A DNA stretch of 64,000 nucleotides from positions 1 to 64,000 of the forward strand of contig JAFYHC010000045.1 in assembly GCA_017539385.1 (NCBI GenBank). Direction: 5' to 3'. Position 1 is the stretch's first letter. Each line of letters opens with the position of its first letter. Positions 30,160 to 63,187 of this stretch are shown one piece after another. The position numbers and the translations under genes are program-made. This DNA comes from Solobacterium sp. Its GTDB lineage: Bacteria > Bacillota_I > Bacilli_A > Erysipelotrichales > Erysipelotrichaceae. The notes beneath the pieces were generated by a model. It was not told where the DNA came from and ran no database searches. It saw nothing but the letters and a program-made list of their open reading frames with translations.

Positions 30160-30171
30160 AGGTGCCCGCCT

Positions 30172-33642: not shown

Positions 33643-33647
33643 GTTCT

Positions 33648-42048: not shown

Positions 42049-43935
42049 CTACGGCAGGATATAGCTGACATTTGGGTAATCCTGCTTCAGTTTTTCAAGT
42101 GCTTCTTCTTCACTGACAAGATACAGACGGCTTCCAAGTGCCTCTTCCAGTGCAAGCTGCTTCGAAAGATCAAGTGAAGTCACGTAGACACGTACGGACT
42201 GCTTCAGCAAAGCAGGATCCATACCGTCTTTATAATCCAGAACAATGGTAAAGATATCCTTTCCATCCAGTGCGGAGATATCCGCTAACGGATCATTCTG
42301 CAGCAACAGCGCATCATATTGTGCCGCATCAGGCAGTCCTTCCAGTGATGTCAGTGGATTGTTCTGCAGCAGCAGATGGAATGCAGAGGTTTCCAGAACA
42401 GCCGGAAGACCGGCGAGAGATTCAATGGAATTCCCGGCAAGATTCAGGATACGCAGCTTCGTACAGCCAGCTAACGGAGAAAGATCGCGGATGGCATTGT
42501 CCGCTGCCTGCAGTCTTTCCAATCGCTCCATCCCGCTTACAAATGACAAATCCTGCACACCGGATGATGTCAGATAGAGTTCCCTGAGATTTGTGCATCC
42601 CTGCAGCGCAGAGAAATCCGTATCAGGCATTCTCTGCAGTACTGCATACAGCAATGTCTCCTTGTTTTTCTCCAGCAAAGAAAGATCTGTAAGAGGAAGT
42701 CCGGAAAAATCAACTGTCTCCAGGACAGTGCAGTTTTTCAGACCGTCCAGAGAAGTAATCTGAGTACCGGAAAGATCCACGGTTGTAAGACGGATCATCG
42801 GTTCCAGCAGTGAAATATCCGAGATCGGGTTGTTATCGATCATCAGTTCCTTCAGATTCGTGCAGGCAGCCATCGGATCCAGTGAGGTGATCTGGTTATT
42901 CCGGATATTCAATGATGCAAGATTCACGCATGCGGAAAGATCCGGAAGAAGCGTCAGGGAATTACCGCTGAGATCGATCGTCTTCATTTTCTCAGAGAAT
43001 TGGACAGAGGAAAGAATACTGTCATTGATTGCACATTCTGTGATCTGCAGCGTATGAAGGTTTGTCATTGCATTTGCAAAAGCAAGTGTATTCACATTGG
43101 TGCAGTGATGCATTTCCACTGTATTCAGCTGTGTTATGTTATTCAGCTCTTCCAGACTTCCGCTTTCAAATGTACAGTCGCTGAAGATCAGCGAAGACAT
43201 TTTTTCAATACGTTCCAGTTTCTGTATATCCTGTACATCGATCGAAGCCTCTTTGATATGTGCCTGGGAATAAATGCGGTATTCTGTATCGTCAATGGTA
43301 ACTTTTACACCATCTGAACCCGAAGTCCATGGGTGCCATACAAACAGCCCGATCACCAGTGCGGCAATCACCAGTCCGATCCGCCATGCCGGCTTTTTCC
43401 CGGATGATTTACGTGTTTTCTTTGCCTTGGGTTTTTTCGTCTTTTCCGGTGCCGGGGATGGTTCTGACGGTGTTGTTTCGATCACTTCCGGGACATCCCG
43501 GCATGGCTGCAGCAGTTCTACATCCATCAGTTTTCTGAGGAATTGTTCTTCTGAGCGGTATTTATACCGCTGCAAAAACATATAACTGGAGATCTGCAGT
43601 TCCAGTCCCAGAGATATCTTTGCGTCTTCCAGAACAACAGACAGAAAGCCAAGATCATGGGATATGGCAAAATTGATCTCTCGTCTGCAGTTTTTGGATG
43701 CCAGTGAATTTGCCGACAGGAAAAACATGCATACCGCCGCATTGGCCAGGTGCTGTGCAATGGACTCCGGCCACTCTGATCCAGGATCGATCCCTTCATC
43801 ATACCAGATGCGGTATCCCGCTTCCTTCATCGCACAGATGACCGGCAGAACACGGTCGGTATCTTTATGACTGTAACTGACAAATATATATGGTTCACTG
43901 CCCTCATACGGAACAGCGCGTTCATACTGGGTCAT
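42049..43935 (-). CDS. TIR - transmembrane - leucine-rich-repeat protein
   Basis: The 628 residues are organised as follows. A TIR domain (about 15-140) has YIFVSYSHKD, IWYDEGIDPG and CRREINFA, with the likely NADase glutamate E86. A Lys/Pro-rich linker runs from 150-183, and one membrane helix RIGLVIAALVIGLFVW from 185-200. A short domain carrying VTIDDTEYRIYS leads into about 14 leucine-rich repeats (about 225-600; for example LASLNIRNNQITSLDPM, LKELMIDNNPISDISLL). The order is that of an inverted Toll-like receptor: TIR inside, LRR outside. The start at 43935 is behind GGAGGAAAC. It is divergent from the Rossmann/RyR-TIR operon. Confidence 0.88.
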   Translation of the reverse strand: MTQYERAVPYEGSEPYIFVSYSHKDTDRVLPVICAMKEAGYRIWYDEGIDPGSEWPESIAQHLANAAVCMFFLSANSLASKNCRREINFAISHDLGFLSVVLEDAKISLGLELQISSYMFLQRYKYRSEEQFLRKLMDVELLQPCRDVPEVIETTPSEPSPAPEKTKKPKAKKTRKSSGKKPAWRIGLVIAALVIGLFVWHPWTSGSDGVKVTIDDTEYRIYSQAHIKEASIDVQDIQKLERIEKMSSLIFSDCTFESGSLEELNNITQLNTVEMHHCTNVNTLAFANAMTNLHTLQITECAINDSILSSVQFSEKMKTIDLSGNSLTLLPDLSACVNLASLNIRNNQITSLDPMAACTNLKELMIDNNPISDISLLEPMIRLTTVDLSGTQITSLDGLKNCTVLETVDFSGLPLTDLSLLEKNKETLLYAVLQRMPDTDFSALQGCTNLRELYLTSSGVQDLSFVSGMERLERLQAADNAIRDLSPLAGCTKLRILNLAGNSIESLAGLPAVLETSAFHLLLQNNPLTSLEGLPDAAQYDALLLQNDPLADISALDGKDIFTIVLDYKDGMDPALLKQSVRVYVTSLDLSKQLALEEALGSRLYLVSEEEALEKLKQDYPNVSYILP

Positions 43936-44036
43936 TCTGTTTCCTCCGTCCGTATCATAGCATTAATTCACGCTCCTGTGACAGTTAGGCCGTTGGGCAT
44001 GCTAGAATAAGACCTGTAATGATTGAGGTGAATAAC
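43936..44036. promoter_or_regulatory. Divergent promoter region between the two TIR operons
   Basis: On the minus strand TATGAT (about 43961-43956) is a -10 for the TIR-LRR gene. On the plus strand TAGAAT at 44003-44008 follows GTGACA at 43978-43983 (19-base spacing, long). The short palindrome CTGT-G-ACAG at 43976-43984 lies between them and could be shared control. Confidence 0.45.
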
Positions 44037-46079
44037 ATGACCATCTTCTGTATATTCATGATCCTGCTGATCGGGATCCTTGCTGTATATCTTGGACGTC
44101 AGTATCTTCATAAAAAAGCCGCCTTTGGCTCTCTGGTCACCAAAGCTCTCTCCGGCATGCTTGGAATCAGCCTGCTCTCCGTACTGGTATTGTGGTTCTT
44201 CGCACCGGAAAGCGTGCGGGAAACAGCCGGACAGCCGCAGCTTTTCCCGGCCATCATCTATACCGTACAGATGTATTCCCTGGATACCAATGTGGAATTC
44301 CTCATGGGGATTGCTGAGACAGCAGGTACAATCGGAAGAGTCCTGATGGGCATTCTGATGGTAATCAATCCGGTTCTTTTACTGGGTACGATTTCCCGCA
44401 TGATCCTGACGGAGATCCTGCACTATGGCACCAAAAGATATCTTCAGCAGGGAAATCTGTATATCTTCCCCTTCCATGACACCAAGTCAGTCTATCTTGC
44501 TTCAAGCATCCTGAAAGAGCAGAAAGATGCAAAAGAAAAGAAAGATGTACGGATCATCTTTGCGTCTTTGTCGGAAGAAGATAAAGATTACCGGGATGTG
44601 GTGCAGGGACTGCAGCCATACCGCCTGCCTGCTTCTTCGTTCAGCGAAGAGCCGCTGACAGCGCTTCTGTCCACCGTAGTGAAGAATCGGGACAGAGAGA
44701 TCACCGTCTTCTTTACCCAGGAAAACTATGACCTGTACGAAGAAACATACCGCCAGTTGTACGAATATAATGCATCGCTGTATGTATTTACCGATGAACT
44801 TGGTACAGCAACCGTGGACCGCATTGCCCGCAATGTAGAACAGGAAATGAAAGCAAAGCAGGCACAGAATACGAAACAGAAACAGGACTCAGAATCAGAA
44901 ACAGAACAGAAGCCGGAAGAAGAAAAGAAAGAGGATGACGAACCTGTTTCAGATGGAATCAAATCCTACTGTATCGATCCGGTCAAGGACAGTATCTGGC
45001 GTCATTTCCTCAAACTGATGAATGATCCGGATGAGGAGAATGATCCCTTCTGCCATCTGACGGAAAGAACCATCCATGTATCGATTGCCGGATGGACGCC
45101 ATATGGTCTTGAGCTGATGAAGACAATGATGTGGCTGGGCAATCTGTATGGTCATCATGCCTATATTCATATGTACCATACCGGCAGTGCAGAAGATCTG
45201 AAGGATCTCTTCCTGTATCATTTCCCGGCGTTCTCCGAACTGTTTGCACAGGATATGGAATATTCGTATTACTGTGCTTCGGATACACTGACATGCAATG
45301 ATCTGTTCACCGTGGAACTCAATCCTGTCTTCTCTTTGCAGAGCGATGCACTGGTACGGGCGATGATCAGTGACAAGTCGCTGATCACAGCATTTACGCT
45401 GGCAGATGACACGGATAATATCCATCTGCTGCAGAAGTATCTGCAGCGCACTGACCTGTCCCGCAGACAGTATCTGTTTGTGCATTGTGAGGATGAGGAT
45501 ATTGCGGCTTATGCAAGGGATATGCAGCTGAGCACGCATATTTCCTTTATCGGTATTCCGAAAGAATTCTATTCCCTGAAGACAATACAGGATAAAGAGC
45601 TGGATGATCTGGCAGTTGAAACACATTATGAAGAGAACCGCATCAAAGCAGAGCTGACACACGGCAAAAAGCCGGACCGCAGGAAGATCACTGAGAGTTA
45701 TCGGACATCGGAATACAACCGGCGTTCTTCCATGGCATCTGCCCTGCAGAAGAAAGCCAGTGTAAAGGCCATCCCAAAAGATCATGAGCGCGGCTATGTG
45801 AATGATAAACGGCCGCTGATGGTCGTTGAACATGACCGCTGGTCTGCCTATATGATCGCACTTGGCTATATCCCGGCAAAGCGGGATCTCACCAACACGA
45901 TCCCCTATGCCAATACGATCAAGCCGATCATGCGTCATACCGATATTACCCCGTATGACAATCTGCCGGCTGATGTCAAACAGTATGATAATGTGACGTA
46001 TATCATGTCCCATATGGACAAGAATATGCAGGAATACCTGCAGAAACCGGAAGACCGCTGGAATGAGGTGCACAAATGA
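44037..46079 (+). CDS. Membrane protein with Rossmann (TrkA-N-like) domains and a C-terminal RyR-like domain
   Basis: The product has 680 residues from the ATG at 44037, chosen for GAGGTG six bases upstream. Three membrane helices occupy about 3-20, 38-55 and 100-120. A first alpha/beta domain (about 140-275) is followed by a Glu/Lys-rich linker (278-310). A second Rossmann domain (about 345-560) begins IHVSIAGWTPYGLELMKTM and includes QYLFVHCEDEDIAAY. A final RyR-like module (about 585-670) has VEHDRWSAYMIALGY, then HTDITPYDNLPADVKQYDN. The same Rossmann-RyR pairing occurs in the kinase fusion at 56536-60714. It is probably a sensor for a nucleotide-type ligand. It is the first gene of a four-gene coupled operon (ATGA overlap). 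Confidence 0.72.
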   Translation: MTIFCIFMILLIGILAVYLGRQYLHKKAAFGSLVTKALSGMLGISLLSVLVLWFFAPESVRETAGQPQLFPAIIYTVQMYSLDTNVEFLMGIAETAGTIGRVLMGILMVINPVLLLGTISRMILTEILHYGTKRYLQQGNLYIFPFHDTKSVYLASSILKEQKDAKEKKDVRIIFASLSEEDKDYRDVVQGLQPYRLPASSFSEEPLTALLSTVVKNRDREITVFFTQENYDLYEETYRQLYEYNASLYVFTDELGTATVDRIARNVEQEMKAKQAQNTKQKQDSESETEQKPEEEKKEDDEPVSDGIKSYCIDPVKDSIWRHFLKLMNDPDEENDPFCHLTERTIHVSIAGWTPYGLELMKTMMWLGNLYGHHAYIHMYHTGSAEDLKDLFLYHFPAFSELFAQDMEYSYYCASDTLTCNDLFTVELNPVFSLQSDALVRAMISDKSLITAFTLADDTDNIHLLQKYLQRTDLSRRQYLFVHCEDEDIAAYARDMQLSTHISFIGIPKEFYSLKTIQDKELDDLAVETHYEENRIKAELTHGKKPDRRKITESYRTSEYNRRSSMASALQKKASVKAIPKDHERGYVNDKRPLMVVEHDRWSAYMIALGYIPAKRDLTNTIPYANTIKPIMRHTDITPYDNLPADVKQYDNVTYIMSHMDKNMQEYLQKPEDRWNEVHK

Positions 46080-46756
46080 AGCCAGTCTATACGCCAAAAG
46101 AAGCGCTTGACCGCTATTTTGAGCTGATGCAGGAAGCGCCGCAATTGTTCGCAAGTCCTGCACCGCAGTTAAAGATCATCACCGACAGAGAAACAATTGA
46201 AACATGGATGAAGACAAGTAACTTCGTGATCGGCATCGTCCATGAGACACCATGGAATATTCACTGCGTGGACCTGGTGGAAAATCCCGGCGGCGCACGT
46301 TTCCCGTATGAGCGTGTTTTGCCGGTAGACATGGGAAAGCACCATGGTACAGTCATCCTGCCAAGGCTGAACGATGACTACATCCTGATCCGTATTTTCC
46401 GGCATGCACTGCGTACGTATGTCTGGGAATTCCCCCGGGGATTCAATGACGGCATTGATGAAGCGGATAATGCAGTAAAAGAACTGCAGGAAGAGATCGG
46501 GGCAGACGTACGGAAAGAAAATGTACGCTATATCGGTACGGTATCCCCCAATACCGCTTTTGAAGCCATCTATGTCGATGTCTTTGAAGCAAGGATCGAT
46601 GGATACCATGCGCCGCAGGAAGAAGAAGGCATAGCCCAGATACGCCGTGTATCACCGGAAGAAATGCGCCGTATGATCATGGATGGTGAAATCATTGATG
46701 CATTTACCCTGACGGCATACCTGTTCTCTTTACAGCAGGAAAGGAGTAAAGATTGA
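46076..46756 (+). CDS. NUDIX hydrolase
   Basis: The 226-residue protein has an N-terminal extension of about 60 residues and then a NUDIX fold. The box at 122-142 reads GFNDGIDEADNAVKELQEEIG. This keeps the G...E...EExG metal-binding pattern, with K where REx is usual. ADP-ribose-type pyrophosphatases have a similar FPRG entry before the box. Its start overlaps the upstream stop (ATGA) and its stop overlaps the TTG start of the TIR gene. In a TIR operon, cleaving an NAD-derived product such as ADP-ribose or a cyclic variant is a sensible role, but that is inference. Confidence 0.82.
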   Translation: MKPVYTPKEALDRYFELMQEAPQLFASPAPQLKIITDRETIETWMKTSNFVIGIVHETPWNIHCVDLVENPGGARFPYERVLPVDMGKHHGTVILPRLNDDYILIRIFRHALRTYVWEFPRGFNDGIDEADNAVKELQEEIGADVRKENVRYIGTVSPNTAFEAIYVDVFEARIDGYHAPQEEEGIAQIRRVSPEEMRRMIMDGEIIDAFTLTAYLFSLQQERSKD

Positions 46757-48702
46757 ACGAACGTTATTTTGTCAGTTACGGACATACCGACAAAGAAAAG
46801 ACAGAAGCTATCCTGCGCTTTCTGAAAAGCTGCGGGCTTTCCATCTGGTATGACGGTGATATCCGTCTTTATCATGACTGGACCGATGAAATCAGGACAG
46901 CACTGCAAGAAACAACAGGTCTGATCCTGATTGCTACCAATGACACGGTGCGCCGTCCAGTCGTGATCAAAGAAGTCGAAACAATGCTGCAGCAGAACAA
47001 GCCGGTCTATGTCATCTGTCTGGAAAATATCCGCATCAACGGTCTGCAGGAACCGGTGCGTACATTGATCATTTACCAGCAGTATGTGCTTTTGCGCCGC
47101 TATAATACCGCTGCTTTGCGCAGTATCGTGCAGAGTATTCAAAGCGGAAAGCCGCTGCAGAATACCGATGCGATGTCCCTTTCCGACTACATCAATACAA
47201 ATTCCGATCCCCGTCCTGTCTATGCCGCTGGAAAGCTGCAGTATTACCGCATCGAACTGGCGGATATTCTTCCCTATTCCGGTACGATACTGGAACTGGA
47301 TGACCAATGGTATCCGCCGGAAATCTATGCAGGCGGACAACTGTACAGTCAGGATCTGACTGTGCGCAGAAAGATACAGGCAATGCGTACGCCGCTGCAA
47401 TGGCAGGAATTCCTGCGTGGATTGCTGCATTCACGGCAGATACTGGTCAACCGGGCATTCTTTCAGAATTCCCCGGTCTTTCGCTCTGTCTACGAAGACA
47501 CGAATGCCGCACAGAAAGAAGCCCTGCGCCAGATGCTGAATCAGGGTGCACTGGTACTGGTATTAATGGATGAAGATCCCTATCAGGATACGGAATACCA
47601 GAGTGATAAAGAATCCTGGGGTACTTTCCTTAGGACCTGTCAGCCGTATTTCATGAAATTTGACTGGGATTCGCCGGAATTTAACCGGCAGATCAACCGG
47701 ACGACATTGTTCGAGCCCTTCGGCACAGCCATGATGACGCTGTTTGCCCACAGTTATACAGCAGAAGAATGGATCCGCCGCTATGGCATTGAAGACCGTG
47801 AAGGTTTTCTGCAATTGCTGGAAACGATCTCCAGCACCGCCATGGACGGTTATCGGAAAAACAGACGCTATAACCGGACCCAATTGTACCGGGACTTTGT
47901 CACTGTGGATGAAAGCGCCCTTCCATTGGGCAGTCCGTTCAAAGGCGTGACGGTGCGGGACACGATCATGGATCCGAATAAGCCGTTTGCACCGGTAATC
48001 AAGCAGATCGCCGATGAGATCTATGCGATGAATTTTGCCTATTCCCATGTATGCGACCTCAAGAGCGGCAATATGTATCTGCAGAAGACTGACGGCACGG
48101 AAGCACAATACAGCCGTGTACTCTATGCGGATGAACTGACCGGTTTCCTGGATGCACTTGTGACTCAGGTGCCGAAGGTCTTCCAGAATGTGCATACCAT
48201 TCCTGCAGTATCATTGGCTTCACTGCAGCTGGATACCATCCTGTCATTGCGCAGTACGATCGAATGGGAAGAATATATCACTGCAGTAGAATTCCTGAAA
48301 AAGCGCACCTACCGGTGGAGCCTTGATGAAGAAGGCATGGTGAAGGCAGTACAGGCATATCTGCGTATCCTGGACAAACTGCCGCACCAGAATGAACAGA
48401 TGCCCTTCGCCTTCTCCGTTCTGTTCCGTCTTTCCTCTTTTGTGATCACGATGACCATCCGCTATAATTCCGAAATAAATGACTTTGAGTATGTATATAC
48501 AACGGAAGGCACCCCTTCCAAAGAAGCATCCATCGTCCATATATCCTTCGAAGTCCGTGCCCGTCTGAATGACAATGCAATTGCATCACCGGAAGCGAAC
48601 ATACTGATCTGTACAGGTATTACGAACCGCAGCTGTGAACCATATGCCAAAGAACTGCTCGCGTATCTGGAAGATCCGCAGAATCCGTTCCGGCATGTAT
48701 GA
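46753..48702 (+). CDS. TIR-domain protein with unknown C-terminal region
   Basis: The 649-residue protein starts at TTG 46753 behind AAGGAG and overlaps the NUDIX stop. The TIR domain (about 1-130) has YFVSYGHTDKEK, IWYDGDIRLYHDW and VIKEVETML, with E74 in the NADase position. The remaining roughly 500 residues contain an alpha/beta region (RQILVNRAFFQNSP, ALVLVLMDEDPYQD) and a mostly helical end. I do not recognise a family there; it may sense an invader. Its stop overlaps a start of the following TIR-NACHT gene. Confidence 0.8.
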   Translation: MNERYFVSYGHTDKEKTEAILRFLKSCGLSIWYDGDIRLYHDWTDEIRTALQETTGLILIATNDTVRRPVVIKEVETMLQQNKPVYVICLENIRINGLQEPVRTLIIYQQYVLLRRYNTAALRSIVQSIQSGKPLQNTDAMSLSDYINTNSDPRPVYAAGKLQYYRIELADILPYSGTILELDDQWYPPEIYAGGQLYSQDLTVRRKIQAMRTPLQWQEFLRGLLHSRQILVNRAFFQNSPVFRSVYEDTNAAQKEALRQMLNQGALVLVLMDEDPYQDTEYQSDKESWGTFLRTCQPYFMKFDWDSPEFNRQINRTTLFEPFGTAMMTLFAHSYTAEEWIRRYGIEDREGFLQLLETISSTAMDGYRKNRRYNRTQLYRDFVTVDESALPLGSPFKGVTVRDTIMDPNKPFAPVIKQIADEIYAMNFAYSHVCDLKSGNMYLQKTDGTEAQYSRVLYADELTGFLDALVTQVPKVFQNVHTIPAVSLASLQLDTILSLRSTIEWEEYITAVEFLKKRTYRWSLDEEGMVKAVQAYLRILDKLPHQNEQMPFAFSVLFRLSSFVITMTIRYNSEINDFEYVYTTEGTPSKEASIVHISFEVRARLNDNAIASPEANILICTGITNRSCEPYAKELLAYLEDPQNPFRHV

Positions 48703-48710
48703 GGTGTACT

Positions 48711-51700
48711 ATGAATAAACCGCGTATCTTCATATCCTATAAAGGCGTCAATATCAGCCGGATGGAACGTGTGCGTGAACTGCTGGCTTCTTTTGGTGCT
48801 GTTCCCCGCTGCGACAAAGAATTCATACGGGAAGGTGAGAATTATCTGGACCGTATCCCTGCTGTTCTTGGAGCGGAAGCAGATGCGGTCATATGCCTTG
48901 TCACAAAGGACATGAGCGATGCCCCGCTGCAGTGCAAGCGCGAAGTGGATTATGCCAATCAGCTTCATAAGCCTCTTTTCTGCATCCGTTATGGTCTGGA
49001 AGATGTCGATGCCGGTCTCATCTATCCCACGATGACCGCCGACTGGATCTGGATCCAGGATCCCGATGATAGAGACAAAGAAGCAGAAACGCTGCAGAAG
49101 ATCACAGAAGCCCTGCAAAAGGATGCCGTCCACCTGAACCATACCGATACACAGGCCGTTCTTCTGGATCAGGCAAATGACTGCACCGCTATCTTTGCAC
49201 GTCTTCCTGCACCGTCTTTGCCGCATCCGTTTTTCAAGGAGATCCTGCCATGGATCGAAACACCAAACAAGCGTCTGGATACGGACGGTATGGCAGACCT
49301 TCTGCAGAAGAAAGAAGCTTCCTGCATTCTGTTAACAGGAGAAGGCGGAGGCGGTAAATCAACGTTCCTGCGTCATCTCTGCATCGTCCTGCAAAAGCGG
49401 GGATGCCTGCCGGTGTATATTCCGGTACGCCTGCTGAACCAGACAGAATATGCCGGTGCACATCCGTTATTTCACTATATCGGCAAAGAGATCCTGCATC
49501 TTTCTCCATATACCGTGGACTATGCCAGCTTCCTGAAGGAGTTCTTTACAAAGCTTTGTCCGCTGTATCCGTTTGTTTTTCTGATCGATGGCTATAACGA
49601 AGCTTCTTCGTTTGAGCAGCTGCGGGAAGATCTTTTTACATTACATGGCATACCTTCTCTGCAGATGATCGTGTCCAGCCGCAGCCAGAGCGGCTTTGAA
49701 CAGCGTCCGGGATGGACGTTTGCCTCAGCACTTGCTTTGACGGATGAACAGATTCGTCAGCTGAATGCCAATCATCCGGTGAAGATCCTGACAGACCTGA
49801 ATGACCGCATCTTTGATCTGATGCGCAGTCCACTGTTGCTGACAATGATGTTAAATGCCTATGACCGCGAAGATTACGAAGCACTGCGGGAAGAAGACCT
49901 GTCCAATGACGGCATAGCGGATCTGATCAACCGATGCATCATTGCCCGCCTGCCCAAAGAAGACACCCGGGAAAACGTCTTCCTGCATGCCGGAATACGC
50001 ATTCTGATGCCTCTTGCGGCAGCGCAGATGTATTTTTCCGGCCGTCTGAAAGATTCCATCGTTGACCTTTATGAGATCTCGGGAGCACTGGACGAATTGA
50101 CCGAAACGGTATTACTGCCGCTGCGGCGCCGTCTTGCCTCGTTATTGGATATGCGCTATGACATCGATAAGATGACGCATGCCCAGGAATACATGGTGGA
50201 CTATGCACGCTGTCTCAAAGAAGACCCGGAAGTTTTTCTGCAGAAACAGATCATTCCTGCCAATTCTTTCCTGCGGAATGAATTGAGATTTCTGGAAGGA
50301 AACATGGATGAGGAGATGCGCTGGACACACCAGACCCTTTTAGACTGGTTTATTGCCCGGGGAATTGTCCTGATGGCACGCATGTCTTCTTTCCGGAATA
50401 TGGAAGAAGCTTCCCGGATCTGCGAAGACTGGATGGAGCACACAGCAAGTCCGATTACCGATCAGCAGACCGATCCTGCATACGATGACTGTGCTGAGAT
50501 CGGCGAACTGGTCTACGGCATGTTAAAAGACACATTCTTCTCCAGAGGATACCGGAATTTACTGCTCAATGTATCCAACGCAAACGGTCTTCACAAATCC
50601 ACCGGCACCTATGCCGTGACCCGTTCTGCCTTTTTGCAGGCAGAACGAGACTATGGGGATACCCCGGAAAAAGACCCGGATGCCTATGTATGGCTGAATG
50701 GAAAGATTGCTTCTGCCGCATATGGCCTGTGCCATCTCAACGGCGGAATTCCCGAGGGCATATCGGAAAAGGACGTTGTACTGGATGCAGTGCGTATTTT
50801 TGAACAGTGTACGAACAACCTGAATTCCTATCCTTCTGCGACAATCGAACAGCAGCGTGCAAAGAAGATGGAGCTGCAGCGCTACGGAACACTGATTGGG
50901 GCAGCCTGGCAAAGGCTCAGCCGGCTGAGCAAAGATCCGGCCGAACAAAAAGAACTGGATGAAAAAGCATTGGATATTTCCCTGCGCATTCTCAAAGAGC
51001 GTCAGGAATTCCGGAAAGAACTCGAGGAAGACCCCAATACACCGCTGGATCAGATCCGTGAAGTTCATATGCGTCTTGCCATGAGCACTGCCTCTGCCGG
51101 TTCCTGCTGGTTCAAGCTTGGCAGATACGATGAGGCACTTGCCTGCCAGAAAGAAGCCATGGAACTGCGGCGTCAGTTCCTTGCCATTCCGGCATATGCG
51201 GACAAGCATCCCCGCGTGCTGAATCAGATCAATGAAAACCGGGTGCGTATTCTTGGCTGCCAGATTCTGATCGGGACAGAAGAGCCATCCGACATCGGAC
51301 AGTGGTGTGAAGAATTCCGCGCTTTGTCCATGGAGGCAAAAAACGGCAATTATTACAGCGAACTGTACAATATTGCCAATAATTTCCGCAGTCTTCTCAC
51401 CATGCTGGAAAAGCATCCTGATCTTCTTACCGAAGAGGTTCAAAGGGATGTGGAAGAGACGGCACGTATCCTGAGTGATGCATACAACAGCCGCCGGCGT
51501 GACCGGATCAATCTGATCCAGGAAGTGCCATGGGTGCGTCTATGTACAGCACCGGTATCTTTGTCCAAAGCGGATCAGATCCGCTTCATGGAGGATTCCA
51601 TACAGCATTTCCTGCTTTCAAAGCCATTCAGGCGCCTGTTGGCAATGTATCATTGCCCATATACACTGACCGGAGATCTGAAGCAGGATCTTGAAGCACT

Positions 51701-52460
51701 CAATGCATTTGTGGAACGCTGGGATTACCGCAAGGGAAAAGAACGGCAGGAAATTGCCGCAGCCGATCCAATCGCCGCTTCCCATCGCAAAGAGATCATG
51801 GAAATCGCCGATGCACTGGGCATGACGCGCCAGGAATACGCGCATATTACCAGCGCGGATTACATCCTGATCCTGGGCGGAGCGAATATGGCAAATAAGA
51901 TGCGTGTGGTATTAGGCAAAGAGGTTGCCGATCATCTGCCTGACAGCCAGCCTGTCATCATTGCCCTTGGTGCGCAGCGTCCTCTTCCGGAAAAGGAAAA
52001 AGAAAACATCCGGGATTTTGCACCGGATGCTGAGACGGAGTTTGATGCCATCTGTACCGGCATGGAGGATGTCTTCTCGTTACATGAGATCCTGCAGGAT
52101 ACGCACGATGATAACGGCGGCATCCTGCGTGAATGGAAAGACCCGGACGGCAAACGGAAATATTACGCACTCTGTACCCCGTCCATCCATGGAAAACGTG
52201 CCAATACGCGGGATACGTTCGAACATTTCCTGCAATTGTTCCATGTACCGGAAAAAGCCGAGATCACACTTGCGACCACGGCTCTCTACAACAACTATCA
52301 ATTGTTATCTCTTCTTCCCATCGCTCTGGAACACAATATCCATCTGTCCATAACCGGACGGCCGGTATTGCCCACAACGAAACTGAGCGGGGAAGCCTTC
52401 TTACAGGAAGTCAAGGCAGCTATCAATGCCATGTATGCATTCGTGCTGTCGGTTCACTGA
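48711..52460 (+). CDS. TIR-NACHT NTPase with TPR-like region and DUF218-like end
   Basis: The product has 1249 residues from the ATG at 48711 (GAGGTG four bases upstream; an ATG at 48699 is possible). The TIR domain (about 4-130) has FISYKGVNISR and CKREVDYA (E78). The NACHT-type STAND NTPase has Walker A GEGGGGKST at 210-218 and Walker B FLIDGYNE with D293. A long helical TPR-like region spans about 560-1000. The last 200 residues begin ADYILILGGANMANKM and contain ANTRDTFEHFLQLF...ITLATTALYNNYQL. That layout resembles the DUF218/YdcF fold. It is an NLR-like immune receptor with a TIR effector, last gene of the operon. Confidence 0.82.
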   Translation: MNKPRIFISYKGVNISRMERVRELLASFGAVPRCDKEFIREGENYLDRIPAVLGAEADAVICLVTKDMSDAPLQCKREVDYANQLHKPLFCIRYGLEDVDAGLIYPTMTADWIWIQDPDDRDKEAETLQKITEALQKDAVHLNHTDTQAVLLDQANDCTAIFARLPAPSLPHPFFKEILPWIETPNKRLDTDGMADLLQKKEASCILLTGEGGGGKSTFLRHLCIVLQKRGCLPVYIPVRLLNQTEYAGAHPLFHYIGKEILHLSPYTVDYASFLKEFFTKLCPLYPFVFLIDGYNEASSFEQLREDLFTLHGIPSLQMIVSSRSQSGFEQRPGWTFASALALTDEQIRQLNANHPVKILTDLNDRIFDLMRSPLLLTMMLNAYDREDYEALREEDLSNDGIADLINRCIIARLPKEDTRENVFLHAGIRILMPLAAAQMYFSGRLKDSIVDLYEISGALDELTETVLLPLRRRLASLLDMRYDIDKMTHAQEYMVDYARCLKEDPEVFLQKQIIPANSFLRNELRFLEGNMDEEMRWTHQTLLDWFIARGIVLMARMSSFRNMEEASRICEDWMEHTASPITDQQTDPAYDDCAEIGELVYGMLKDTFFSRGYRNLLLNVSNANGLHKSTGTYAVTRSAFLQAERDYGDTPEKDPDAYVWLNGKIASAAYGLCHLNGGIPEGISEKDVVLDAVRIFEQCTNNLNSYPSATIEQQRAKKMELQRYGTLIGAAWQRLSRLSKDPAEQKELDEKALDISLRILKERQEFRKELEEDPNTPLDQIREVHMRLAMSTASAGSCWFKLGRYDEALACQKEAMELRRQFLAIPAYADKHPRVLNQINENRVRILGCQILIGTEEPSDIGQWCEEFRALSMEAKNGNYYSELYNIANNFRSLLTMLEKHPDLLTEEVQRDVEETARILSDAYNSRRRDRINLIQEVPWVRLCTAPVSLSKADQIRFMEDSIQHFLLSKPFRRLLAMYHCPYTLTGDLKQDLEALNAFVERWDYRKGKERQEIAAADPIAASHRKEIMEIADALGMTRQEYAHITSADYILILGGANMANKMRVVLGKEVADHLPDSQPVIIALGAQRPLPEKEKENIRDFAPDAETEFDAICTGMEDVFSLHEILQDTHDDNGGILREWKDPDGKRKYYALCTPSIHGKRANTRDTFEHFLQLFHVPEKAEITLATTALYNNYQLLSLLPIALEHNIHLSITGRPVLPTTKLSGEAFLQEVKAAINAMYAFVLSVH

Positions 52461-56185: not shown

Positions 56186-56196
56186 CAGCCATAAAA

Positions 56197-56232
56197 ATAC
56201 AGCCTCCGGATCATTTGATCCAGAGGCTGTAT
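56197..56232 (-). terminator. Terminator of the kinase/RyR operon
   Basis: TACAGCCTC and GAGGCTGTA arms enclose a second inner stem (GGATC/GATCC), followed on the minus strand by TTTTTATGG. Confidence 0.92.
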
Positions 56233-56236
56233 TCAC

Positions 56237-56521
56237 TCAGTCTTCTTTGCGGATGGTATATCCCATCTTTACGATCAGACGAAGAGTTTCCATGGCCGTA
56301 TTGCGGTCATAGTCCTTCTCACTGTCCGGGAGTTCATCATATGGAATCAGAAGCGGTGTTGTCTTCTTTTCCTGATCTTTGAACTCTCCATAGGTCCATC
56401 CTTCCTCCATCCGGCCGCGTGCCCATACCTCATGGACATTCTCAGCGATCTTTTCCGTCAGCTGCAGGAGTTCTTCCGGCAGTTCTACTGTGGAGGTATC
56501 GATTGGTTTTGGTATATACAT
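56237..56521 (-). CDS. Stand-alone RyR domain protein
   Basis: The 94-residue protein is almost wholly a RyR (ryanodine receptor repeat) domain. ENVHEVWARGRMEEGWTYG (about 26-44) is the His-x-x-Trp ... GWxxG core, and PLLIPYDELPDSEKDYDR (55-73) is the LxPYxxLxxxxKxYDR box. Bacterial RyR domains are predicted to bind nucleotide-derived ligands. It is the last gene of the kinase operon (14-base gap, AAAGGA site), followed by a strong terminator. Confidence 0.9.
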   Translation of the reverse strand: MYIPKPIDTSTVELPEELLQLTEKIAENVHEVWARGRMEEGWTYGEFKDQEKKTTPLLIPYDELPDSEKDYDRNTAMETLRLIVKMGYTIRKED

Positions 56522-56535
56522 GGCGGGTATCCTTT

Positions 56536-59500
56536 CTAACCTTTATAGGTTCCTTCGATAATCTTTACAAGTGTATCGCCGATATGATCGATTTCATCCG
56601 GACGGTAGACTGTTATGACCTGCATGCCTTCGCCGCGCGCTCTCTGCAGCTGGTTCAGCGATGAAATGTCATCGCCCTTTTCCCGTGTATCTGCGATCAG
56701 TACGGCGACAGCATTGATGCCGAAGATGTCTGTGAGTTCCTTGATGCGGTAGTAGAAGCCCTGATCGATCTCACGTCTTGCCTTGCATTCAATGAAGATC
56801 GTACGGAATCCCCTGGTCACCACGCAGTCCAGTTCACTCAGGACATTGCTGTTTTCCATATACACTTCAAAGCTTCCGGTCACATCATCAAACTGGTTCA
56901 GTGCACGGACTTTGTGGTAGACATAGACTTCCAGCATTCGTCCGGCATTGGTCAGAAGATCCTTGATCTGACGGGATGCATAGGTGAAGAAGATGTTATA
57001 GGCAGAATTTGGATCATCCGGTTTTACATGATCGCATCTCAGACCGGTCAGATAATGCATATCACGGAAGTATTCCAGCAAAGAGATCATCTTGTTCTGA
57101 TCCTTGCCGCTTATGGTCAGATTCTTTACCTGCAGGTTGTTGAATTCGATCTGCACGGTATTGAAGTTTGTCCGATATGCCTTCACTGCATCCGCATCCA
57201 TCAGGGAATATACAGAGGCAAACAGGCGGTCATACTGGGGCTGGTTGGACAGGCGGTCTTTGATCACGACTTCGCAGGCATCACTGGTATAGCCGTATAC
57301 TGCGCTTCCTTCTTCGCAGCATCCTTCTTCCTGCAGGATGCCGATCAGTTTGGCAGCGGCCTTGCTGCAAAGGGAAGGTAGAACGTATGTCAGTGTTTCT
57401 TCTTTGCCTTTTTCTTTATTCAGCGGGAAGTAGCAGAGACGATCCTTGTCATCCGCATATTCTTCCAGCTTCATGCACAGATTCTTCCAGACAGCACTGC
57501 TGGCAGTATAGACCTTCCACAGTGCTTCATAATCCTCATAGAATTCCGGATGGGATCCGAAATTGGATCGGGAGCGGCAGAAGGAAGCGATATCATTCAC
57601 GGTAAGCGATGCATCGCATTTGATCCACTGCAGCGGCTCACAGTCATGCAGGTTTTCCAGGATGCGGTTTTCTGCATCACAGCGGTACGCCGGCAGACGG
57701 TCGTATATACCTGCACCATCCAGCAGATACGATAATCCGGAACTATTCTTTTCCAGTCCGAACAATGCCTTGCGGGCCGGACCTCTGCGCAGGAGGTCTT
57801 CCACAGAGCGTGCTGTATCTGCACTGCTTTCGACCGGATACGGTTTGATGGAATCAATGCGCACAGACATGGCTTTGAGGTCTGCTTCCAGCTGTTCCGT
57901 GACTGCGTTGGCTGCTTCAACGCGGTACAGCAGCCATACCGATACCTGTGTGCGCAATGGCTTGCGGTCAAACAGACTTACAATGGAATGCAGGGCATTC
58001 TTGATTTCCTGAATGGAGCGCCGGTTTTCCAGATAGCAGAGATAGACGACTCTTGCCGGATCAGCCAATAGCGGTGCTGCAGCACAGGAGAAGACAGCAT
58101 CGTTGCTCTCGGTACGCAGGGGGATTGCAAAGCAGGAATCACCGGTATGTGTCAGGATATAGGGAATGCCGCGGATCAGGTCCGTATCATTTTCCTTCCA
58201 GCTGCGGTATTCCATGGATTTGTACATTACATAGAATTCCCGGTCAAACAGTACAATGTGAGACAGTATACGTTTCTGTGCATTCTCTGGAAGTGCAGAG
58301 ATGGAATTCTCCAGTTGCGTCTTGCGCTGCTTGTAGATGTGCACTCTGTTTTCTTCCCGGTTCCAGATATCCTGTATGCTTGCATACCATTCCCGGTATG
58401 CGCATAAAGCATCCGGATCATTGGAAACAGCGGTGCGGATCTCAGAAAGAAGCGTGCTGCCAAGCACATTGCGGCGGCGCAGTTCTTTTGCTTTTTCGGC
58501 ATAGATGCGATGCAGCTGCACTGACATCCTGTCCAGCGGATCCAGCCGCATCATGTCTTCTTCTGATGCAGTATCCCACTGCTCATGCGTCCAGCCGGCA
58601 AGATTGCGGTTGGCATCGCTTGGAATGATGCAGATATTGCGCTTTCCGACACTGTCGCGTTCATTGCCGCCAAGACACCAGGAAAGATTTTCCAGCTGTG
58701 TCCAGCCGGTACATGCTTTTTCGGTGCACCAGCGGCGGTGTTCCAGCCACAGCAGGTCATTGACCATGCGTACGGCGGTATTGCTGCTTCCTTCGGTCGC
58801 CGAAGCGAAGTCAACGGCAGCTTCTTCAAAGCTCTTTGTTCCCAGATCGATGCCGATACTGTGCAACTTGTATTTTAATGAGAGGACATTGTCCACACTG
58901 GAATCATGATGATACGGCTGACGGAAGTTCTTCCGGCGTACCCGGTCATCTTTTTCCGTTTCCCAGATGCAGTGGGCATTGTATGCCATGCGTTCGATAT
59001 CCTCATAACTGCGGTATCCTCTTGCATCTTCATTGACATACACCGCTGCCAGTCCTTCCGACAGCGTCTGTGTCAGCCGCTTGCCTTCGCGGACAAAGTG
59101 CACCTGTGTGCGCAGACCGACACGGCTGTTGTAATACTTCCAGCATATGCGTGCTGTGTTCTGGTTTCTTGCATCATCGCCCAGTGCAATAAAGATGTAA
59201 TGCACATGGATCCCCATGAAGTGTTCCTGCAGGATCCTCTCCAGGGAATCCTTCAGATGTGCTTCATCCTGGTCATCCAGGCGCTCGGTAATTGATTTGA
59301 TATCACCATACGGCTCACACTGTTCCGGTGATTTGCCTTCGATGGTGAAGAAGGACGAGAGACCAGGCCGTTCATTCTGATACAGACGCAGGTCTTCCGG
59401 ATTGGCGGAGACAGCTGTCACATGGAGACGGCGGTCACGCATCTGTCCTGCCTGCAGACAGATATCCAGGAATTTCTGACCATAGCCGCCCAGGCCAAGC

Positions 59501-60714
59501 ATCAGGACATTCAGGTCCTTTTCTTTTTCATCTTCACATGCATACAGCGGATATTCATACAGATGGTGGCGGATCACCAGTGCAGAATTCTTGTCTTTGT
59601 TCTGATCGAGCACCTTGCGTGCATCGGTCAGCACCCATTTTTCTCCCCGCTGCTCTTTGCGTGCGATCCCGGCCGGCATGACATAGAACAGTGCCTGTTC
59701 CAGGTCTGCCAGGAGGTCTTCTGTACGGATATAGCGGTTTTTTCGCGGAGCCAGGCATTTCCTCAGGATACCTGCAAGAATGCTTCTCAGATTTGGATTG
59801 GAATTTGCCTCAGAAGACTTTATCAGCAATGATCCGTCTACCAGTTCTTCCAGACGCTGGTAATACTCCGGATGATAGATGCATTTATCTTTTTTTGTAT
59901 CTGCAGTGATGCAGATGGCCTGGAACAGCGTTGCACCGATGGAGTAGATATCCGTCTGGATCGTCGGTCTGTTCCGCAGTGCTTCCGGTTCCATGTATCC
60001 AACCGTTCCCATGGTCTCATTGACCGTATCGAAGACGGAACAGATCGAATCGATGTCAAACATGGTCAGGGTCTGTGTCAGGGTCTCATCCCCGCGTTTC
60101 TGGAAGCCGAAATTCGATGGCTTGATATCGCGGTGGATCAGTCCTTCCCGATGCAGTGCACCAATGCATTTGGTCAGTGACTCTATGCCTTTTAATACTG
60201 CAAACAGATGGTATTCCGGTGTCTTTTCCGGATATCTGCGGATCTCTTCACAGAATTCTTCAAAGGACATGACTTTTGCCTGCGGTGTCCATATATACGT
60301 TGTACCGATCTCATTGAGATCTTCATCACATCCGGTATAGATCTCAAAGACCGGTATAAAGGACGCAAGCATCTCATTGCTGCTTTCCCGCTTCTTTTCC
60401 AGCAGACGCTTATGCTGCTGTACATAGCGCTGGCGTTCTTCTTCGAAGCGCTGTGCACCCTGTACGAAGGAATCATCGCACTGTACCAGCTGACCATCGC
60501 TTCTTCGCTTCACGGTGAAGGAATCGACCGGGTAGAATTCTTTCAGAATGCCCATGCCGCTGTTTTCATCGTAGGCGTTGTAGCAGACGACTGTGCTGCC
60601 TTCTTTGTAATTGTTCTCATTGATGCGGCTTTTGATCGTAAAGCGGCGTGCATATTTCTTTCCGCTGCTGCGTGAGCAGACCAATATCGAATCTTTCAGG
60701 TATTCCCGTGCCAT
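56536..60714 (-). CDS. Ser/Thr kinase - Rossmann/RyR - Card1-like nuclease fusion
   Basis: The 1392 residues hold three modules. A protein kinase (about 25-340) has lysine K58 in GILKEFYP, HRDIKPSN at 194-201, FDID in place of DFG at 219-222 and GTVGYMEPEA. A Rossmann domain (about 400-620, LNVLMLGLGGYGQKFL) is followed by a RyR-like segment (about 650-735, WLEHRRWCTEKACTGW ... PSDANRNL). A long alpha/beta and helical region without assignment follows. The C-terminal nuclease (about 1240-1392) has E1262, D1296, E1309 and K1311 in LSELDCVVTRGFRTIFIECK, as in DUF1887/Card1/Can2 nucleases. The start abuts the PP2C stop. The kinase could control the nuclease, and the RyR part could sense the trigger. 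I know of no described protein with this full order. Confidence 0.82.
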   Translation of the reverse strand: MAREYLKDSILVCSRSSGKKYARRFTIKSRINENNYKEGSTVVCYNAYDENSGMGILKEFYPVDSFTVKRRSDGQLVQCDDSFVQGAQRFEEERQRYVQQHKRLLEKKRESSNEMLASFIPVFEIYTGCDEDLNEIGTTYIWTPQAKVMSFEEFCEEIRRYPEKTPEYHLFAVLKGIESLTKCIGALHREGLIHRDIKPSNFGFQKRGDETLTQTLTMFDIDSICSVFDTVNETMGTVGYMEPEALRNRPTIQTDIYSIGATLFQAICITADTKKDKCIYHPEYYQRLEELVDGSLLIKSSEANSNPNLRSILAGILRKCLAPRKNRYIRTEDLLADLEQALFYVMPAGIARKEQRGEKWVLTDARKVLDQNKDKNSALVIRHHLYEYPLYACEDEKEKDLNVLMLGLGGYGQKFLDICLQAGQMRDRRLHVTAVSANPEDLRLYQNERPGLSSFFTIEGKSPEQCEPYGDIKSITERLDDQDEAHLKDSLERILQEHFMGIHVHYIFIALGDDARNQNTARICWKYYNSRVGLRTQVHFVREGKRLTQTLSEGLAAVYVNEDARGYRSYEDIERMAYNAHCIWETEKDDRVRRKNFRQPYHHDSSVDNVLSLKYKLHSIGIDLGTKSFEEAAVDFASATEGSSNTAVRMVNDLLWLEHRRWCTEKACTGWTQLENLSWCLGGNERDSVGKRNICIIPSDANRNLAGWTHEQWDTASEEDMMRLDPLDRMSVQLHRIYAEKAKELRRRNVLGSTLLSEIRTAVSNDPDALCAYREWYASIQDIWNREENRVHIYKQRKTQLENSISALPENAQKRILSHIVLFDREFYVMYKSMEYRSWKENDTDLIRGIPYILTHTGDSCFAIPLRTESNDAVFSCAAAPLLADPARVVYLCYLENRRSIQEIKNALHSIVSLFDRKPLRTQVSVWLLYRVEAANAVTEQLEADLKAMSVRIDSIKPYPVESSADTARSVEDLLRRGPARKALFGLEKNSSGLSYLLDGAGIYDRLPAYRCDAENRILENLHDCEPLQWIKCDASLTVNDIASFCRSRSNFGSHPEFYEDYEALWKVYTASSAVWKNLCMKLEEYADDKDRLCYFPLNKEKGKEETLTYVLPSLCSKAAAKLIGILQEEGCCEEGSAVYGYTSDACEVVIKDRLSNQPQYDRLFASVYSLMDADAVKAYRTNFNTVQIEFNNLQVKNLTISGKDQNKMISLLEYFRDMHYLTGLRCDHVKPDDPNSAYNIFFTYASRQIKDLLTNAGRMLEVYVYHKVRALNQFDDVTGSFEVYMENSNVLSELDCVVTRGFRTIFIECKARREIDQGFYYRIKELTDIFGINAVAVLIADTREKGDDISSLNQLQRARGEGMQVITVYRPDEIDHIGDTLVKIIEGTYKG

Positions 60715-61425
60715 TTATGCATAATTCCTTTCCGATTTCTTTTTCAGTTCCATTGTGATGAATGTGCAGTCATCGAATGGATCCTGCTTCTGCAGATAGT
60801 CTCCCAATTGCTTATTGCGTTTCATTTTGATCATTGTCTGGACTTCCTGACGCATGCGGCTTCTCTCAAACAGATTATGCCATGCCCCGTCTGAGCACAG
60901 ATAGATCGTTTCCGCTGTTCCTGCGTCCATCTTATACACACGCATTTTCTTTTCTGCTTCCGGTGTTGTTGTCACATAGCAGCCGTTGCGGGAATCGGAT
61001 GGCATAGCGGGCACCGCACACCCGCTTTTTGATCCGGTAATGATCATGCCATCCCCCAGATTTACTAATAGCAGCTTCCTTGTTTTCCGGTCATACAGGG
61101 CACTGCACAATGTACTGGACAGTTCCTTTACATCGATATGCATGGCATCTGCCTTCTGCTGCAGTTCCCACCGTATATGTGCCAGAGACAGTTCCGCAAC
61201 GGTCTCTTCGGGAAAATCCATGAAGTGCTCTGCTTTATGAAACAGGAGCCGTGTCATTTCACGGGATGCGACTTCGGCGCCCTCCCGTCCGTTTGTGCAG
61301 GAGGAGACACCGTCTGCCAGTGTAATGACTGCATATCTGGCATTCTCCTGATGACTTACAACATCCTGACTTCCCTCCTTCCTTTCGAGATGATGGGAAC
61401 CTGTTGTACTGAATGTATATGTCAT
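60715..61425 (-). CDS. PP2C-family Ser/Thr phosphatase
   Basis: The 236-residue protein has a complete PP2C metal-site set. It shows GSQDVVSHQ, ADGVSSCTNGREGAEVAS, LVNLGDGMIITG, LCSDGAWHNLF and DPFDDCTFI near the end. It would reverse phosphorylation by the kinase encoded directly downstream (TAA immediately followed by ATG). AAGGAGGAG precedes the start. Confidence 0.9.
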   Translation of the reverse strand: MTYTFSTTGSHHLERKEGSQDVVSHQENARYAVITLADGVSSCTNGREGAEVASREMTRLLFHKAEHFMDFPEETVAELSLAHIRWELQQKADAMHIDVKELSSTLCSALYDRKTRKLLLVNLGDGMIITGSKSGCAVPAMPSDSRNGCYVTTTPEAEKKMRVYKMDAGTAETIYLCSDGAWHNLFERSRMRQEVQTMIKMKRNKQLGDYLQKQDPFDDCTFITMELKKKSERNYA

Positions 61426-61444: not shown

Positions 61445-63187
61445 TTACAGATTCATATACGCGTAGGAAGAGAATACCAGCATGACATCAAATATGTTTT
61501 TGGCGCTGAGTGGCTGGTAGTATGCCTCTTCCAGCTGCGGGTCTACGGTGTCGCGGAAGTCCTCAAAGAGTTCCTTGAAGTTTCTCCATCTGCTTCCGTT
61601 GGCTTCAAGCATTGCATTGTACAGATAGTACAGTGCCGTCAGTAAGGATGTACGGGTCATATCATTGGCGCTTTTGACGTCCAGGGAAGATTCATTCTCT
61701 TCTTCGCTGTCATTTTCGCCTTTCGCTTTTGCCTTGATGAAACTGTCGAACGATTCCAGAAGACCCGTATAATCCTTGAATTGTTTTGCTGTGATATCCG
61801 GATGTTTCTCAAGGAATTCATCCGCATAGTCATGCATTTCATCGAGTTCGGCAAACATCAGACCATAGTTGCATTTGTCCAATGTGATCTCATAATCTTC
61901 CCGCAGAGTCTGCAGTGTCTCTTTATACAGCTCATAGGCTGTATTCTGTTCCAGTGCGATCTGGATCGGATTGATGGTATTGTATGTGACTTTGCCGTTT
62001 TTGTCGGTGACCTGCTGGGTGATGCAGCAATCGTAGCATTCTTTCAGGAATGCCTTGAATTCATCTTCACGCAGGGTCATGACGGTCAGGACATCCGTTT
62101 CCCCGTCCGGTGCAACACCGTGGACCAGGCCGCGGTACGTCTTTGTGCCGCCGTCCAGACGTCTGCCGCCGTTGCCGCTGTCTGCCAGTTCATTGATCAT
62201 GTCATTGGCTTTCTGCAGCTTTTCCACAGCAGTAAGATCCTTGCGGATGTAATACAGATAAACCATCTCGGCATAGTTCTTATAGTTGATACCCTGGCCG
62301 GACGGATCTGCCTGATAGCGGCTGCGTTCACTCCGGTACTCCGGTGAGAGGTAGCGCATCAGATTATTGACATAGTAGTCACGGAACAGATTCGCATCGA
62401 CATCTGTCTTAGCGTCAAAGACTTCCGGACCGTTATCATCCGCACCAATGTAATACGTCATGTTGTAGACGATTGCAAAATAGTACAGAGCACGCTTTGT
62501 ATTGCCTTCCATGCGGAAGTATCCCTGGGCAAGGTCATTGACGATTTTTAATAAGCCGAACATGCCGCGGGGACGAAGCTGGTCTCTGGCTGCACCTTCC
62601 AGTTTTGCAAAGATGCCGTCATCCACGTTCTCCCAGACTTCCTGGTTCGTCGGACGATGTCCGATCTTTTCCTGTACATATCGGACGATCTGCGCCTTGC
62701 CACCGATATCCCGGGCAATCGTTCCGTTCGCATTTTTATGGCAGATGCCCTGCAGATAATCACCATACTTGATGAACTGCTTCAGAATACGCACACGCAG
62801 CGGATCATCACGCCAGCCGTCTTTGGGATCTTCCAGTGTATCGACCATCCGTTTCATATAGTCCTGCGGAGAGGCGTAGATTGGAAGCTTCTTAAAGATC
62901 GCCATCAGCATCTTGTCGCGGACTTCCTCATACTCCGGAATATCCACGTCCCTGAGCAGATCTGCATAGTACTTTGCATTATCCATGTGCTTCTTTGGAT
63001 GAATGTCAAAAACGGCCATCATCTTTTCCAGTTCACTGAGAACTTCGAGATAGTTGGTCATCCCTTCGGCATCTTTCAGATCAGCCAGTTTATGATCAAA
63101 GTCGCGGCGGGTATACAGAGATCCGAATTCCTTGTTCAGATCTTCCAGTGCAGACTGTGCTCTGCGTGTGATCGTTCTGATTTCCAT
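61445..63187 (-). CDS. Unknown 580-residue protein of the kinase operon
   Basis: The product is soluble and largely helical, with no signal peptide or membrane segment. Notable stretches are an early coiled-coil-like RAQSALEDLNKEFGSLYTRR, the PTNQEVWENVDDGIFAKLEG region, a low-complexity acidic NDSEEENESSLD near 495, and a C-terminal YYQPLSAKNIFDVMLVFSS. I recognise no family. It is the first gene after the operon's own promoter region and 19 bases before the PP2C gene. It may be the phosphorylation target or the effector partner. Confidence 0.7.
   Translation of the reverse strand: MEIRTITRRAQSALEDLNKEFGSLYTRRDFDHKLADLKDAEGMTNYLEVLSELEKMMAVFDIHPKKHMDNAKYYADLLRDVDIPEYEEVRDKMLMAIFKKLPIYASPQDYMKRMVDTLEDPKDGWRDDPLRVRILKQFIKYGDYLQGICHKNANGTIARDIGGKAQIVRYVQEKIGHRPTNQEVWENVDDGIFAKLEGAARDQLRPRGMFGLLKIVNDLAQGYFRMEGNTKRALYYFAIVYNMTYYIGADDNGPEVFDAKTDVDANLFRDYYVNNLMRYLSPEYRSERSRYQADPSGQGINYKNYAEMVYLYYIRKDLTAVEKLQKANDMINELADSGNGGRRLDGGTKTYRGLVHGVAPDGETDVLTVMTLREDEFKAFLKECYDCCITQQVTDKNGKVTYNTINPIQIALEQNTAYELYKETLQTLREDYEITLDKCNYGLMFAELDEMHDYADEFLEKHPDITAKQFKDYTGLLESFDSFIKAKAKGENDSEEENESSLDVKSANDMTRTSLLTALYYLYNAMLEANGSRWRNFKELFEDFRDTVDPQLEEAYYQPLSAKNIFDVMLVFSSYAYMNL

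Follow-up and report, generated by a model that had tools for sequence, protein, structure and literature searches.

A kinase–RyR–Card1-type nuclease fusion among TIR genes of a Solobacterium genome: a candidate RyR-linked defence module

The DNA analysed here is a stretch of 64,000 nucleotides (nt) from Solobacterium sp., a gut bacterium (GCA_017539385.1, 85% complete; contig JAFYHC010000045.1, positions 1–64,000). The whole stretch is called the window. One gene on its minus strand (open reading frame, ORF, 56536–60714) encodes a protein of 1392 amino acids (aa) in which a protein kinase, an RCK/TrkA-N Rossmann domain, a RyR domain, a CARF fold and a Card1/Can2 nuclease are fused (56539–60714). 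This domain architecture is certain from the ORF, Pfam and eight aligned relatives. A PP2C-type phosphatase gene and a stand-alone RyR gene flank the fusion, TIR genes cluster around it, and its TIR/RyR link is well supported. We tentatively read the whole, at somewhat less than an even chance, as a TIR/RyR-linked defence module in which the kinase and the RyR domain would gate the Card1-type nuclease and the phosphatase would serve as reset. The original prediction, made from the same DNA, had given the right coordinates and no strand. The motifs it quoted were found at the residues it named (K58, HRDIKPSN 194, GLGGYG 407, EHRRW 658, E1262, D1296, E1309 and K1311), and the kinase, Rossmann, RyR and Card1-type nuclease domains that it had placed in one frame were all recovered with Pfam, profile and fold comparisons. 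It had missed the stand-alone RyR gene and the TIR clustering, and hence also the likely ligand class.

Relatives were searched with queries from which the kinase had been removed, whole-protein queries being swamped by kinase matches. Searches of 60 close relatives, 395 genomes of the same class, 392 genomes of the same phylum, plasmids and viral contigs gave no full-length relative. Single-sequence pattern scans returned no relative from genomes and viral contigs and kinase matches only from plasmids. The search across the phylum of the window genome gave stand-alone Card1-like proteins only. A query made of the Card1 part reached a truncated relative in Lachnospiraceae (L076, 36% over 639 aa), from which L169, L170, L171 and L172 were reached; L184, L185 and L186 were reached with a profile search. 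These eight relatives are all in Clostridia and form, with the window protein (P0001), the family considered below. Because the gene was not found in 35 genomes of the window genus and its closest relatives are in Clostridia, its distribution suggests acquisition by horizontal transfer.

The nuclease domain (residues 1241–1392; 56539–56994, minus strand) was recognized with PF09002 at 40.4 bits (Card1_endonuc cut-off 26.4 bits) and aligned with 12 stand-alone Card1-like proteins (hhalign, 98.2%). An AlphaFold2 model of residues 395–1392 was built from nine sequences, with a mean predicted local distance difference test score (pLDDT) of 71. From residue 858 (model residue 464), the model matched VC1899, Can2 and Card1 over CARF and nuclease (Foldseek 1.9e-7; Z 12.3 for VC1899 and 9.7 for Card1), and a PD-(D/E)XK fold of this kind, looked for by structure prediction, was found at the C-terminus. 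Residues ~858–1110 (57385–58143, minus strand) were assigned to a CARF-fold domain with an eroded D-x-TGG ligand motif by hhalign, the family profile and the model. With hhalign, this region aligned with the CARF portion of the stand-alone Card1-like proteins at 98.1%, and at 96.7% when P0001, L076, L170 and L184 alone were used. The family profile matched stand-alone Card1-like proteins in the CARF half (1.6e-14 and 9.5e-9) and in the nuclease half (1.4e-15 and 9.3e-14). The proposal that a kinase and a RyR module had taken the place of CARF above the nuclease was thus not borne out.

Card1/Can2 nucleases, enzymes that cut DNA or RNA, are known as outputs of type III CRISPR. The protein might be an ancillary nuclease of that system, opened by cyclic oligoadenylate at the CARF domain and placed under extra control by the kinase and RyR domains. 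The presence of the CARF fold agrees with this, as does the CARF motif still readable in L185 (VIDVTGGDE, with DVTGGD) and L172 (VLDVTGADE, with DVTGAD). However, the ligand-motif segment of P0001 reads FGLEKNSSG, and the TGG region is also absent from L076, L170 and L184 in the alignment. The Cas10 palm (PF22335) was over cut-off in 0/9 genomes, and Cas1 was not found in the window genome, at its 85% completeness. We consider a CRISPR role of this type very improbable. As neither the ligand motif nor a Cas10 partner was found, the fusion module does not qualify as a CRISPR-type Card1/Can2 system. Cas10 matches below the cut-off are probably GGDEF palms and were discarded. Stand-alone Card1-like proteins, each paired with a ~290-aa protein with no family assigned, were also seen in two genomes, at L065 7347–9352 and L064 7095–9088; these pairs are flanked by housekeeping genes resembling recR and mnmG, and no CRISPR genes are visible around them.

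The nuclease residues E1262, E1294, D1296, E1309 and K1311 are all present in P0001 and intact in L076, L170 and L184. Conservation of the ECK segment among homologues therefore held for these four proteins and failed in the four outgroup members: E1309 is replaced by S in L185 (SCK), and the site is degenerate in L171, L172 and L186. L169 is cut off before the nuclease domain and the motif is not readable there. P0001, L076, L169, L170 and L184 form one clade (support 100/99), here called the RyR clade, in which the nuclease motif is intact wherever readable. Exactly one PF02026 gene was found in each of its five genomes. It lies directly downstream of the fusion in 4/5; in the remaining genome (G661) it is on another contig, and the contig of the fusion ends inside the gene. 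No PF02026 gene was found in the four outgroup genomes, whose nuclease sites are altered. The difference (5/5 versus 0/4) gives p = 0.008 if the genomes are taken as independent, but the clade is a single one and amounts to one origin.

The altered outgroup sites could also mean that the Card1 part has a mainly structural role and is being lost, and that the protein works by phosphorylating partners, for instance the 580-aa protein of the same operon. The kinase would fit such a role. Its domain (residues ~1–345; 59680–60714, minus strand) was matched by Pfam Pkinase at 48.2 bits (cut-off 31.7 bits), and K58, D196 and N201 are identical in 8/8 family rows covering these positions; D220 was read from the alignment as the DFG equivalent. 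Against this, E-E-D-E-K is kept in every readable RyR-clade copy at 24–36% identity to P0001, which implies selection on catalysis. We therefore judge a mere kinase scaffold to be rather improbable.

The RyR (Repeat12-like) domain of the fusion (residues 572–745; 58480–59001, minus strand) was identified by profile search, a separate model and alignment. When a 13-row profile of the segment was compared with the PDB, 12/12 matches at E<=1 were ryanodine receptors (best 7.3e-7). The segment modelled alone reached a pLDDT of 88. Its top fold matches were all RyR but weak (Z 5.5 over 111 residues), and with Foldseek E-values of only 0.2–1 the assignment is based on the profile search and the residues. 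No PF02026 match over the gathering score was obtained in the fusion protein. H659 and W662 (the HxxW motif) are invariant over the 13 RyR rows. Phage RyR-domain proteins bind or cleave the TIR-made cyclic ADP-ribose (cADPR) isomers 2'cADPR and 3'cADPR via H75, W78, H100 and D117, which are conserved in animal RyRs (PMC13232231, 2026 preprint). A signal passing from TIR to RyR is therefore the simplest way to read this gene neighbourhood.

The stand-alone RyR gene (94 aa; 56237–56521, minus strand) starts 14 bp past the stop codon of the fusion and has its own ribosome-binding site. Its product was matched by PF02026 at 125.3 bits (cut-off 27.4 bits), by 3nrt at 134 bits and by animal RyR at 1e-65, and a PF02026 search of the genome gave a single match (56249–56518, minus strand). 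The gene closes the operon, since an intrinsic terminator with an 18-bp hairpin and a T run stands directly behind it (56195–56234, minus strand; -30.8 kcal/mol, z -8.8). In the Lachnospiraceae relative, a 133-aa protein, weakly DUF3232-like, is encoded directly 3' of the RyR gene (L076 2291–2692).

TIR_2 was located in seven family genomes. Of the 32 TIR genes, 14 lie within 15 kb of the fusion, against 0.41 expected from random placement, an expectation that ignores the clustering of defence islands. Within this distance were found 3/3 TIR genes in G830, 3/4 in G1196 (4/4 within 25 kb), 4/5 in G1272, 1/2 in G806 and 3 of ~15 in the window genome. In L184, a TIR gene stands directly 3' of the RyR gene. 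In L185, the family member has a TIR–kinase fusion (4180–5748; TIR_2 59 bits, Pkinase 112 bits) at a distance of 0.8 kb, and in L187 a TIR gene overlaps a Rossmann–RyR gene. The RyR–TIR link is not universal: the membrane Rossmann–RyR proteins of L188–L190 had no TIR neighbour in the loci examined. The family member at L171 (642–18878) has membrane Rossmann–RyR and TIR–LRR genes upstream and genes for an EssC-like ATPase and YukD (type VII secretion) downstream.

Several points weigh against a TIR-to-RyR defence role. In G934, 0/3 TIR genes are near the fusion and G1306 has no TIR gene, both being of the degenerate subgroup. The TIR genes of the window lie 4–13 kb from the fusion, outside its operon and with other genes between, and the clustering may reflect only a shared defence island. 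The position equivalent to H100 of the phage protein RyDEP is N693 in P0001, where a phosphate-contacting His is replaced; the remaining 12 rows have H there, and the stand-alone RyRs have Thr. Kinase activity, nuclease activity and phage defence are indirect predictions. Furthermore, RyR domains also bind ATP/ADP: human RyR3 Repeat12 structures in the PDB hold AMP-PCP, ADP or ATP, according to the entry titles. The protein could thus be a metabolic or stress sensor in which RyR and RCK read ATP/ADP or NAD(H) with no TIR signal, the kinase being the main output and the nuclease a dormancy effector. RCK/TrkA folds bind nucleotides and PP2C/kinase pairs are general regulators, both in keeping with such a sensor. 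The Rossmann domain, of RCK/TrkA-N type (residues ~396–564; 59023–59529, minus strand), was assigned by fold match, the first 170 model residues matching the RCK domains of TrkA (4g65) and KefC (8by2) with Z 11.3 and a root-mean-square deviation (rmsd) of 3.0 Å over 120 residues. Its GxGxxG is present in P0001 but is not conserved across relatives in the motif columns, which counts against the sensor, and GLGGYG was rejected as a conserved NAD-binding motif. A stress sensor also leaves the TIR clustering and the adjacent stand-alone RyR gene unexplained, and we regard it as unlikely.

The order of the operon is most likely 580-aa gene, PP2C, fusion and RyR, with limits set by the strong hairpins that stand on both sides. 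The same order is seen in the RyR clade as far as the contigs reach. The PP2C-type phosphatase (236 aa; 60715–61425, minus strand) was matched by PF13672 at 87 bits. Its stop codon abuts the ATG of the fusion, which agrees with the original placement of a PP2C directly upstream. In L169, L170 and L184, too, a PP2C homologue stands ahead of the fusion. The gene of the 580-aa partner (61445–63187, minus strand) ends 19 nt before the PP2C gene; its product has no Pfam match above cut-off, and homologues stand upstream of PP2C in L170 and L184 (BLAST 5e-44 and 2e-24). The TelA operon was rejected as part of the module because a hairpin (z -4.8) separates it from the 580-aa gene and because it is not upstream in the relatives read. 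It belongs to a row of genes for TelA, a metallophosphoesterase and pRiA4-ORF3/TPR/SseB proteins (window 63365 to beyond the end; L063 3366–7093). Contig C18 carries a second gene for a protein kinase outside the window (L063 13396–16527); the 399-aa protein encoded next to it is similar to the partners of the degenerate fusions in L171 and L172 (E ~1e-5).

Under the TIR/RyR-linked defence reading, the fusion would work like a ligand-gated immune nuclease, by a mechanism that we infer as follows. Upon sensing of phage or plasmid, nearby TIR enzymes would turn NAD+ into an ADP-ribose-type signal. This signal may bind the RyR domain of the fusion, as the HxxW pocket and the homology to RyR suggest. 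Binding would be relayed through the RCK-type Rossmann domain and the kinase, and the C-terminal Card1/Can2 nuclease would be released. The eroded CARF domain would then have ceased to be a receptor for cyclic oligoadenylate and would provide the frame of a dimer instead. The placement of domains relative to each other is poorly predicted in the model (rmsd 13–16 Å over CARF and nuclease). Phosphorylation by the kinase may target its own fusion protein or the 580-aa partner, and PP2C would reverse this. The stand-alone RyR protein might buffer or destroy the signal and so set the threshold.

A separate operon of four genes with 4-nt overlaps lies at 44019–52460 on the plus strand and looks like a second TIR/RyR system. 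It is headed by a membrane Rossmann–RyR protein (686 aa; 44019–46079; EHDRW...RHTD...YDN), related to Rossmann–RyR proteins of L171 and L187 (BLAST 3e-8 and 4e-7), and by a NUDIX hydrolase that overlaps its neighbours (46076–46756; PF00293, 39 bits). These are followed by a 649-aa TIR protein (46753–48702; TIR_2, 47.6 bits) and a 1253-aa protein with TIR, NACHT-like and TPR parts (48699–52460). In the latter, TIR_2 was over cut-off in the genome search (31.8 bits), whereas TIR_2 and NACHT were just below the Pfam cut-offs in the window scan. A TIR–LRR gene (42049–43935) stands beside this operon. Elsewhere in the window (24045–36437, minus strand), there are four large adjacent ORFs (1371, 671, 1156 and 929 aa); the 1156-aa product has a Tubulin_2 domain (196 bits), and the other three are without a Pfam match.

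In this family, a whole Card1/Can2 unit has been placed beneath another class of sensor; the operon is conserved, and no Cas10 was above cut-off. With TIR genes beside it, the fusion suggests that a nuclease of this type can be activated in a manner not described before. No description of the kinase–RyR–Card1 architecture was found in the literature searched, which was incomplete, so that an earlier mention is possible. The handling of TIR-made immune nucleotides by phage RyR domains was shown only recently (PMC13232231). Here, a bacterial RyR shares one chain with two enzymes whose activity can be measured (kinase and nuclease), which makes the reading of TIR signals by RyR directly testable. 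The part that cADPR plays at the RyR channels of animals may hold an echo of it. A bolder claim is that of a new immune signalling class, in which RyR reads TIR-made ADP-ribose signals, a kinase/phosphatase switch controls a CRISPR-derived Card1-type nuclease and a second RyR acts as damper. We hold this to be possible but somewhat doubtful.

Among known systems, the Card1/Can2 proteins (VC1899, SthCan2, TbCan2 and Card1 6xl1) share with the fusion the layout of CARF, linker and PD-(D/E)XK domain and the catalytic residues; E276/D278 of SthCan2 (PMC7969007) correspond to its E-x-D pair E1294/D1296. Unlike them, the window protein is fused to a kinase, an RCK-type Rossmann domain and RyR, its CARF ligand motif is eroded, and its operon holds PP2C and RyR genes, with no Cas10 above cut-off. 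PADLOC models of the PD-T4-6 kinase defence matched the kinase part only and not the whole length. For the TerY-P triad, no vWA match was obtained with Pfam in the 580-aa partner. As in Thoeris and other TIR signalling, the TIR enzymes have as neighbour a protein with a domain of a kind for which binding of TIR-made nucleotides is known. Unlike in Thoeris, the TIR genes lie outside the operon of the fusion, kinase and phosphatase are present, and no ThsA-type effector was identified (no ThsA in the PADLOC matches among the scanned proteins). In CARF proteins with an N-terminal Zn ribbon, kinase and AAA+ (PMC4012209), a single chain likewise holds a kinase upstream of CARF and wHTH; the published description of that family includes AAA+ and neither RyR nor a Card1 nuclease. 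Among PF02026 proteins, which include phage RyDEP, the stand-alone gene encodes a plain member, and the HxxW ligand motif is retained in the domain within the fusion. Phages use RyDEP as an anti-defence protein, whereas the RyR of the window is bacterial, fused to a kinase–nuclease and paired with a second RyR.

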